From Candidatus Edwardsiibacteriota bacterium (lineage in GTDB: Bacteria; Edwardsbacteria; AC1; EtOH8): 33,622 nucleotides of DNA. The stretch is from assembly GCA_020053305.1 (NCBI GenBank), contig JAGVNJ010000008.1, positions 1 to 33,622 on the forward strand, read 5' to 3'. Numbering within the stretch: position 1 is the stretch's first letter; every line of letters begins with the position of its first letter. The position numbers and the translations under genes are program-made. Positions 16,102 through 30,040 of the stretch are shown here, in pieces. The notes under the pieces were generated by a model. It was not told the origin of the DNA and did no database searches. It saw only the letters and a program-made list of their open reading frames with translations.

Positions 16102-16265
16102 TAGACACTGGACTAAAGACTAAAAATCCGAAATTCCAAATCCAAATGACCCAAACAACGACCCACTTCGTGAGTGCCGCGGTTTTGAATATTTGTATTT
16201 TGTCATTTGATATTGTTTCGTGTTTCGGTTTTCGTGCTTCGTATTTAAAAAAAGTCTACTGTCTC
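16102..16265. repeat. imperfect inverted-repeat (MITE-like) intergenic element
   Basis: The ends TAGACACTGGACT and, on the other strand, GAGACAGTAGACT match at 10 of 13 positions. Inside, CAAATGAC (left) faces GTCATTTG (right) within longer A/T-rich arms that begin with CGAAA. It fills most of the 282-nt gap between the ComFB-like gene and the 112-aa gene and has no coding content. Confidence 0.5.
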
Positions 16266-21952: not shown

Positions 21953-23008
21953 TTATTCCCGATTAATGTTTTCGTTTATTGACTGGTTTATTTTCGAAAA
22001 AACCTCTTCCACCGTGACCTTATCCATGCAATCGTATTCGGGACATTTTCGGTCGGTGCATTTTCGGCATAATTCCACCGGCGGGATAAGCGTTGAATGT
22101 CCCGGGCCGTAAGGCCCCCAGCGTTTGGGGTGACAGGGGATCATCGGGCAGTACAGGCCTATCACCTTGGTCGTTACCGCCGTAGCAATATGCAGCGGCC
22201 CGGTGCTGTTGGCCACCATTAATTTTGCCTGCGACAGAAAAGCGGCCAGCTCCGGCAGGGAAAGACCCGACACCCAGGCCGGCTGGGTTTTAAGATAAGC
22301 CCGTAGTTTTTCTTTGATGCGTTCTTCGCCCGGCCCCAGGGTCACGGCCACTTTTATTTTCTGAATTCTGAATTCTGAATTCTGAATTCGATCTATCACA
22401 TCGGCAAACTTTTGGATCGGCCAATCCCTGGCCGAGCCCCCGCTGCCGGGATGGATGACTATGAACGGCTGGCTGAGGTCAATTTTTCCGGATAGTTTTT
22501 TTGTGATCTGCTCCTTCAACTCCCCGGTAACCGATATCTCCGGCAGATATTTTTTCTCGGAATAAGATTCGATGCCTAATCCCGAGCGCACCAGATCCAG
22601 GTTATGCTCCAGTTCGTGCTTCAGGCTGAACTTGCGGTGCTGTTTCACCCGGCGGTTGAACAGCAGGCTGTATGACCGGTAGGCGGTGCCGATCCTGACC
22701 GGGACCCCGGCCAGCCGCAGGGCCCAGGCCAGCCGGCCGGTGGGGTGCAGCAGGACAGCCAGATCGAAATCATGCGTCTTTAGGATTTTGGCCAATCCCC
22801 GGGCATTCAGGTTTGGATGGTCATTTATCACCGCATCCACCGATTTTGAGAGCGCGATCAGCGGGGCGGTGTATTCCCGGGCCAGAAAAGTGATCCGGCA
22901 TCCGGGATAAATATCCTTTAAAAGAGCGGCGGCGGAAAGCGACAGGATAACGTCCCCTATCCGGTCGGTCCTTACCAGCAGTATGTTTTTATATGCTTTA
23001 TCAGACAA
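21953..23008 (-). CDS. GT9 family glycosyltransferase (ADP-heptose:LPS heptosyltransferase-like)
   Basis: A 351-residue GT-B enzyme of the heptosyltransferase family. It has ILLVRTDRIGDVILSLSAAALL at the N-terminus, FIVIHPGSGGSARDWP in the donor half, VANSTGPLHIATAV and a Cys-rich end (CRKCTDRKCPEYDC). It probably adds a heptose or related sugar to the LPS inner core. The start codon is TTG at 23008, since no ATG fits before the first strand; the SD is weak. An insert at residues about 207-217 (RIQNSEFRIQK) is encoded by a 7-bp tandem repeat and looks foreign to the family. It is separated from the other GT9 gene by a 75-nt palindromic spacer. Confidence 0.88.
   Translation of the reverse strand: MSDKAYKNILLVRTDRIGDVILSLSAAALLKDIYPGCRITFLAREYTAPLIALSKSVDAVINDHPNLNARGLAKILKTHDFDLAVLLHPTGRLAWALRLAGVPVRIGTAYRSYSLLFNRRVKQHRKFSLKHELEHNLDLVRSGLGIESYSEKKYLPEISVTGELKEQITKKLSGKIDLSQPFIVIHPGSGGSARDWPIQKFADVIDRIQNSEFRIQKIKVAVTLGPGEERIKEKLRAYLKTQPAWVSGLSLPELAAFLSQAKLMVANSTGPLHIATAVTTKVIGLYCPMIPCHPKRWGPYGPGHSTLIPPVELCRKCTDRKCPEYDCMDKVTVEEVFSKINQSINENINRE
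22359..22389. repeat. 7-bp tandem repeat (TTCTGAA x4.4) inside a GT9 gene
   Basis: Four and a half direct copies of TTCTGAA. Because 7 bp is not a multiple of three, three units encode a heptapeptide in any frame; here it reads NSEFRIQ on the minus strand. The same repeat occurs in frame inside the aspartate-semialdehyde dehydrogenase gene at 29478-29505. Confidence 0.95.
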
Positions 23009-28999: not shown

Positions 29000-30040
29000 T
29001 CACACGTTGGATGCCGTTCTCAATATTTTATTTTTGATTTTTAATTTTAAAAGAAGCTCCGCTATCTGGACCGCATTGGTGGCCGCGCCTTTGCGCAGGT
29101 TATCCGCCACCACCCACATCACAAAGGCGTTCTTTTTAAAAGGATCGGGCCGCAATCGGCCGACATAGGTCAGGTCGGAATCCTTCAATTCCGCCGGGGT
29201 AATATAATCCTTGTTGCTGAAAACCACGCCCGGCGCCGTGGCCAGCAATTGTTCGATCTGCTTTAAAGTGCAGTTCTTCCCGGTCTCGAAGTAGACCGAC
29301 TCCGAATGTCCGGTCATCACCGGGACCCTGACCGTGGTGGCGTTGACGGCGATATTTTTGTCGTGCAGTATCTTCTGGGTCTCTTTTACCATCTTCCACT
29401 CCTCGCCGCTGTAGCCCAGCTGGGAGAAATCCGATATCTGTGGTATCACATTGTTGGCAATTGCGCGAGGGAATGTAGAATTCTGAATTCTGAATTCTGA
29501 ATTCTTTGCCTGCCTTTCCAGTTCCGCCACGCCCGCCCTTCCCGCCCCCGACACCGCCTGGTAGGTGGACACCACTATCCTCTTGACCCGGTATCTTTTA
29601 TGGATCGGCGCCAGGGCCGCCACCATTTGGATGGTGGAGCAGTTGGGGTTGGCTATCAAGCCCCGTTGCTTTTTGACATCCTCGGGGTTGGCCTCGGGCA
29701 CGATCAGCGGCACGCTGGGATGCATCCTGAAATCCGAGCCGTTGTCTATCACCACCGCCCCGGCCGCTATGGCCTTTTGAGCATAGAGCCGGCTGGCGCC
29801 CTTTTCGCCCTCGGTGCCGGCAAAGAAGATGATATCGCAGCCGGAGAAGTCGGCCGTCTTCACCGACATCACCGGATAATTTTTTCCCTGGAACTTTATC
29901 CGCCTACCGGCCGACCGGGAAGAGGCCCACAATTTAAGGCCCGCCAGGGGAAATTTTCTTTCCTCCAGAACCTTGAGTATGGTCTGGCCCACCAGCCCGG
30001 TGGCGCCCACTAGACCTACTATCATCGATCCCTTGGTCAT
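29000..30040 (-). CDS. asd: aspartate-semialdehyde dehydrogenase
   Basis: 346 residues from the ATG at 30040, which overlaps the stop of the 78-aa gene (ATGA); a second ATG five codons in (30025) has a better SD and cannot be excluded. NADP loop VGLVGATGLVGQTIL, active-site Cys134 in NPNCSTIQ, and a histidine-region motif near PVMTGHSE fit Asd, which reduces aspartyl phosphate to the semialdehyde for Lys, Met, Thr and DAP synthesis. It follows the aspartokinase gene in the pathway. Oddities: an in-frame NSEFRIQN insert (about 180-187) from a 7-bp tandem repeat, and a tail after AELLLK of low-complexity AT-rich origin (LKIKNKILRTASNV). Confidence 0.95.
   Translation of the reverse strand: MTKGSMIVGLVGATGLVGQTILKVLEERKFPLAGLKLWASSRSAGRRIKFQGKNYPVMSVKTADFSGCDIIFFAGTEGEKGASRLYAQKAIAAGAVVIDNGSDFRMHPSVPLIVPEANPEDVKKQRGLIANPNCSTIQMVAALAPIHKRYRVKRIVVSTYQAVSGAGRAGVAELERQAKNSEFRIQNSTFPRAIANNVIPQISDFSQLGYSGEEWKMVKETQKILHDKNIAVNATTVRVPVMTGHSESVYFETGKNCTLKQIEQLLATAPGVVFSNKDYITPAELKDSDLTYVGRLRPDPFKKNAFVMWVVADNLRKGAATNAVQIAELLLKLKIKNKILRTASNV
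29478..29505. repeat. 7-bp tandem repeat (GAATTCT x4) inside the ASD gene
   Basis: Four exact copies of GAATTCT encode NSEFRIQN in the minus frame, in the same heptapeptide register as the repeat in the GT9 gene at 22359-22389. Confidence 0.95.

Follow-up and report, generated by a model that had tools for sequence, protein, structure and literature searches.

Two tandem arrays of a 7-nucleotide unit lie in frame within unrelated enzyme genes of the stretch of DNA analyzed here (33,622 nucleotides; referred to below as the window). They are probably heptanucleotide repeats that form loop-encoding DNA and that have been rewritten in place since the ancestor of the family to which the organism belongs, by concerted evolution at constant length. 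Across this family, the position, register, and length of the arrays are conserved, and the unit turns over and is homogenized; at a hairpin of LeuRS, arrays originated in parallel.

Two heptanucleotide arrays in the window

The arrays and their host genes are listed below.

21953 to 23008, minus strand: GT9 (heptosyltransferase-like) gene, an open reading frame (ORF) matching PF01075 (E value, 6e-30) and host of the first array
22359 to 22389, minus strand: GT9 array, perfect period 7, 31 bp, GAATTCA on the coding strand in 4.4 copies, peptide RIQNSEFRIQK
29000 to 30037, minus strand: aspartate-semialdehyde dehydrogenase (ASD) gene, matching PF01118, PF02774, and PDB 2qz9 (E value, 9e-82) and host of the second array
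29478 to 29505, minus strand: ASD array, perfect period 7, 28 bp, AGAATTC on the coding strand in 4 copies, peptide KNSEFRIQNS
29022 to 29048, minus strand: period-7 stretch with imperfect units that encodes KLKIKNKI at the C-terminal end of ASD (3.9 copies and 80% match according to TRF), probably a decayed array of the type found in GT9 and ASD

A preliminary description of the sequence had reported (GAATTCT)n in both genes, and TRF recovered both arrays with period 7 and 100% match, with 4.4 copies in GT9 and 4.0 in ASD. A 14-mer of the repeat was found 7 times with at most one mismatch versus 0.01 expected from shuffled windows, and the arrays have the (near-)perfect 7-nucleotide tandem unit, well above chance, of bacterial heptanucleotide long simple sequence repeats (LSSRs). 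As had been noted, (GAATTCA)n encodes one identical heptapeptide from all three frames without a stop, read as NSEFRIQ on the coding strand. On the opposite strand, TGA is met in every frame. The predicted structures agree with the proposed placement between secondary-structure elements in both proteins: for GT9 (mean pLDDT of the model, 88), the array covers the last part of helix 198-209 together with the turn preceding strand 219-224, and for ASD (mean, 76), it falls within the only long low-confidence stretch, which follows helix 168-178. The idea of a slippage-type microsatellite, tolerated by genes because it is stop free in one orientation and located in loops, is supported. Elsewhere in the window, outside the main ORFs, a degenerate period-7 array (TGTTTCG, 4.7 copies, 73% match) is present at 16214-16246.

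Orthologous loops with a fixed site and a changing unit

We retrieved the orthologues of GT9 and ASD from all ten genomes of the family (the window genome is G000) and compared these two sites with four sampled ones, namely, the LeuRS hairpin, HypE, the FtsY linker, and the Tmk N terminus. The six sites mostly bear 11 to 12 codons of period-7 DNA at equal position and register and usually at equal length, and the heptamer varies by genome, with about a dozen units such as AATTCAG, AATTCAA, AATCAAA, AATTCGA, and AATTTCA. (i) The ASD loop has one length in 8 of the 9 complete sequences, within two residues of that in the Vibrio ASD of known structure (PDB 2qz9). Its units are AATTCAG (G000), AATTCAA (G001 and G006), and AATCAAA (G003), along with the degenerate AATTGCA (G002), AATGAAA (G004), and AATGCAA (G005). 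(ii) At the GT9 site, GAATTCA occurs in G000 and G001 and AATCTCA in G002 and G003, and the units of G004 and G007 are decayed and richer in GC. The loop is 5 residues longer in the array-bearing genomes than in G005, G006, G008, and G009, which represent two other genera. (iii) The Tmk N terminus carries AATTCAG, AATTCGA, AATTCAA, or AATTCGG in one register in six genomes of four genera; the array is absent from G000, G003, and G008. (iv) HypE has three consensus units, some decayed, and FtsY has three units, each protein at a single length. Within a single genome (G001, G002, or G003), the ASD and GT9 sites usually hold unlike units.

These data do not support the initial view that one peptide had been inserted into two enzymes: at the same two sites, the relatives bear other heptamers in a shared register and mostly at equal length. 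Relative to the two other genera, the array adds residues in GT9; it adds none in ASD, where, judging from the sequence comparison, it takes the place of part of a loop of normal length and has not been inserted. As to copy number, FtsY of G009 (L326; G009:C108) falls short of most orthologues by exactly 14 bp, or two units, when measured between anchors and is out of frame. This deficit is either the footprint of unit-wise slippage or an assembly collapse.

Homogenization of units within arrays

At homologous register, consensus units are on average 1.6 of 7 positions apart, versus 4.6 at random registers (P < 2e-4). The changes that separate orthologous arrays tend to hit one unit phase in several units at once, in 637 pairs versus 111 with the columns permuted (maximum, 147). 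For these tests, array cores were cut by hand at flanking codons, and the genome pairs, drawn from ten genomes of one family, are non-independent. Differences between genomes are homogenized through every unit of an array. Units within an array are more alike than are those of orthologous arrays, and the register is shared, as in concerted evolution; the concentration of differences on particular phases is the pattern expected from repeated copying within an array. Part of the agreement in register could be due to selection acting on the peptide, above all in the LeuRS hairpin, and perfect arrays of differing unit could be fresh births at a permissive site.

A 6-bp palindrome is contained in 7 of the 13 distinct units of the family versus 8% expected. 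A writing process that is dedicated to this task or has a strong sequence bias (such as hairpin-primed or template-switching synthesis favoring heptamers with a 6-bp palindrome) might rewrite a fixed set of protein loops with period-7 DNA, an explanation that we consider improbable. If it were true, bacteria of several phyla would be using a microsatellite to renew parts of essential enzymes again and again. The palindromic unit was rejected as a general cause, since Bacteroidota LeuRS arrays of other units lack a palindrome (assessed by eye), and it is taken as a hint only.

Occurrence of the GAATTCA unit

The suggested search beyond the two genes returned more copies in the window genome, in relatives, and in other phyla. 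In the window genome (2.59 Mb, 77 contigs), one further GAATTCA array measures 20 bp or more; it lies where a dihydroorotase-like gene starts. GAATTCA arrays occur in 6 of the 10 genomes of the family, and all 18 distinct ones examined lie within a gene in the stop-free orientation; the hosts are GT9, ASD, HypE, LeuRS, GuaA, LpxK, tRNA nucleotidyltransferase, Tmk, FtsY, and dihydroorotase. A 20-mer of the repeat was found in none of 51 genomes outside the family in the search of relatives, and the array was found in none of 251 genomes of the order of G071, where the unit is rare or absent. A 27-mer scan of GTDB contigs gave at least 118 matching stretches, and the phyla among the matches listed are Cyanobacteria, Ignavibacteria, Patescibacteria, Planctomycetota, Bacteroidota, Verrucomicrobia, Chloroflexi, Acidobacteria, and others. 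Of the GAATTCA arrays found, 62 of 68 cyanobacterial ones are outside long ORFs, and 40 of 54 non-cyanobacterial ones are inside them. Housekeeping hosts outside the family include IleRS, CarB, MurD, GuaA, AroA, MnmE, FolC, RecG (two arrays), LpxB, UvrA, and LeuRS; the MnmE arrays, from two unrelated genomes, are at about equal position along the protein. In phase-variable contingency loci, a surface or host-interaction gene has its expression switched by frame. The arrays described here are in housekeeping genes (ASD, LeuRS, Tmk, FtsY, GuaA, LpxK, IleRS, MurD, MnmE, RecG, UvrA, and AroA) and are in frame in nearly all genomes.

Rickettsia palindromic elements are repeated DNA fitted in frame inside unrelated protein genes. 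A short mobile (GAATTCA)n element that copies itself into coding DNA in a comparable manner would explain why one unit recurs unchanged in 9 or more different genes of the family and in many phyla, and why all 18 family arrays examined lie in genes. However, different sites have no flanking sequence in common, arrays end at varying unit phases, and there is no target duplication or defined end. Empty orthologous sites with added length, as left by such elements, are not seen in ASD and only in part in GT9 (the 5 extra residues), LeuRS lengths are likewise equal, and unlike units occur at different loci of one genome. Mobility is largely refuted by the turnover of units at fixed sites, where relatives have other heptamers, and we regard it as very improbable; of the earlier proposal of a mobile or slippage-driven microsatellite, the slippage-type part stands.

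A sequencing-adaptor or assembly artefact might be suspected, since GAATTC is the EcoRI site, many of the genomes are short-read metagenome-assembled genomes (MAGs), and FtsY of G009 is frameshifted. It is scarcely credible given that arrays come from isolates and MAGs of many independent projects and that diverged copies occupy equal sites.

Two host genes showed additional features. In tRNA nucleotidyltransferase of G001 (L016), a second heptamer-type peptide, EIQNPKSKIY, stands beside the NSEFRIQ array, and in LpxK of G008 (L010), two opposed GAATTCA runs meet head to head to form a palindrome, with the reading frame still open.

Period-7 arrays in the LeuRS CP1 hairpin

We examined 79 LeuRS loci (224 kb) chosen by kinship or LeuRS similarity, not by the repeat. 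The CP1 hairpin (7.4 kb) contained 11 period-7 arrays, whereas the rest of the loci contained none, and no other short period was enriched in the hairpin (period 14 being the double of 7). The hairpin is a general hot spot for period-7 arrays. GAATTCA arrays occupy one hairpin position in the family, Bacteroidota, and Patescibacteria; units outside the family include AAAGTCG, GTTCAAG, GGTCACA, and CCTCAAA. A LeuRS tree from which the hairpin was omitted requires at least 5 changes for GAATTCA, four of them forced by supported branches. The carriers of this unit were mostly found via the repeat, which biases their number but not their scatter. The presence of any heptamer requires at least 9 changes, eight of them forced. 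In eight GAATTCA-bearing LeuRS genes of the family, Patescibacteria, and Bacteroidota, flanking synonymous third positions differ by 35 to 78% and the array by 0, so the array is younger than the gene or has been homogenized relative to it.

Permissive loops might instead regain fresh period-7 arrays by repeated independent births, with no continuity between related species. The several units of the hairpin arrays in different lineages, with the changes on the tree just given, speak for such births, as do the Bacteroidota of f227, in which 4 of 5 species have LeuRS arrays with mostly different units. Against it, within the family of the window organism, the register is common and units are mostly 1 or 2 substitutions apart; births must hold between phyla and are unneeded within the family. 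We consider this unlikely as the general account.

Native hairpins follow the pattern [VI]xFx[IV]x6[ILF]x[VI]F at equal length, and EFRIQNSEFRI fits it, as would be expected if this peptide had been selected by convergence as a good beta hairpin. However, genes of different phyla have the same codons over 33 bp despite the divergence of flanking synonymous sites, the DNA period is 7 and not 21, and the units and peptides at other sites differ. Convergence at the protein level is refuted as the sole cause by the period of the DNA and is highly improbable as the explanation of the arrays, but it may act as a filter: because the peptide satisfies the native pattern, selection would choose which heptamers survive, yet it cannot create a DNA period of 7. 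In LeuRS of G002, whose unit AAATTTG has a stop in one frame, the altered copy is, by our reading of the sequence, the one that would otherwise give an in-frame TGA. Longer heptamer-bearing LeuRS loops have 7 or 14 additional residues by our count.

Further small repeats were noted in the hairpin (L260, L261, and L306), namely, TTCGAGCGnAGTCGAGAA palindromes and a palindrome of the PPLSPFKGGE type. Short repeats in general appear to land in this hairpin.

Relation to known repeats

In 400-kb samples of two relatives (800 kb in total), period 7 was the enriched short period and accounted for 11 arrays, periods 4 to 6, 8, and 10 to 12 for 0 to 2, and the frame-keeping period 9 for 5. In other samples, period 7 was also enriched in a Flavobacteriaceae genome (3 arrays, all noncoding) but not in a fourth genome, which had none. 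This enrichment agrees with the published abundance of heptanucleotides, which, in PMC4679880 (citing Mrazek and colleagues 2007) and PMC4692102, are given as the commonest repeat class in most genomes, with polymerase slippage proposed. The arrays share the 7-nucleotide unit, the abundance of the class, and the proposed slippage with these prokaryotic LSSRs. LSSRs have been described through genome-wide statistics, with multiples of three favored in coding regions, whereas the arrays described here are in the middle of conserved housekeeping proteins, in orthologous loops whose unit turns over while the length stays constant.

The closest analogue of the unit replacement is the P6b region of the Nostoc trnL intron (PMC4476775), where a fixed structural site holds 7-nucleotide repeats of class I (TDNGATT) or class II (NNTGAGT) and separate lineages have repeatedly switched from one class to the other; unlike the loops studied here, it is a length-variable stem-loop of a group I intron RNA and is not protein coding. 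One heptamer recurs over distant phyla, as GAATTCA does, in the short tandem heptanucleotides of Calothrix (cited in PMC4692102) and in the TAACTGA repeats shared by Beggiatoaceae, Cyanobacteria, and Bacteroidetes (PMC4679880). Both are mainly intergenic and proposed to be regulatory, and the translation of TAACTGA has stops. Palindromic amphipathic repeat coding elements (PMC2996958) resemble the arrays as in-frame repeat DNA within unrelated protein genes, but these and the Rickettsia elements are longer, defined, and spreading to new sites, whereas the arrays studied here lack element boundaries and gave no sign of spreading. Our literature search returned no paper on NSEFRIQ, on the GAATTCA repeat, or on conserved in-gene heptamer loops. 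This variant of the bacterial heptanucleotide repeat, with in-place turnover of the heptamer in conserved protein loops, appears not to have been described before.

In a domain-wide sample, the density of heptamer arrays was very high in G056 (L348 to L357), with 17 in 200 kb, of the AGGCAAN and CCTATTN families, inside and between long ORFs; period 7 was enriched in this genome, too.

Proposed course of in-place rewriting

The ancestor of the family would already have had period-7 DNA at the loop sites, the loops being old. A point mutation in one unit would pass to the remaining units via slipped mispairing inside the array, with a net length change of zero or one retained only as a multiple of 21 bp. 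Length would be held by selection against frameshifts, in-frame stops, and loops of wrong length. The outcome would be a short in-gene array of fixed position, register, and length with a changing unit, and GAATTCA would be one frequent state of such arrays, attained independently in many lineages, and not a transposing element. We infer net-zero slippage as the molecular step from the length quanta, the homogenization, and precedent; selection as the filter and the way in which the first array arose are likewise proposals.

If this account is true, (i) microsatellites with a non-triplet unit, which would be expected to destroy genes, continually supply essential enzymes with loop sequence; as 7 and 3 have no common factor, the same heptapeptide results from each frame, so selection need hold only the total length. 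(ii) The arrays offer a testable instance of concerted evolution within single coding sequences. (iii) The recurrence of NSEFRIQ, NSKFKIQ, and ISNLKSQ in unrelated proteins of unrelated phyla is explained, with the warning that such shared motifs are no evidence for homology or horizontal transfer.

A 42-bp repeat within heptamer arrays

A linked 42-bp element (CTTGTCCTGAG...) was considered as a part of the heptamer arrays and rejected, being a separate repeat that is absent from the window. The 42-bp repeat (CTTGTCCTGAGnnnGGCnGCnnTGCC...GCGAATGG; peptide SCPEHGGFAKHANG) lies in frame within heptamer arrays at two unrelated sites, LeuRS of G000 (L202) and FtsY of G008 (L025) and G006 (L030), and imperfect matches occur elsewhere in G000, G006, G008, and G009.
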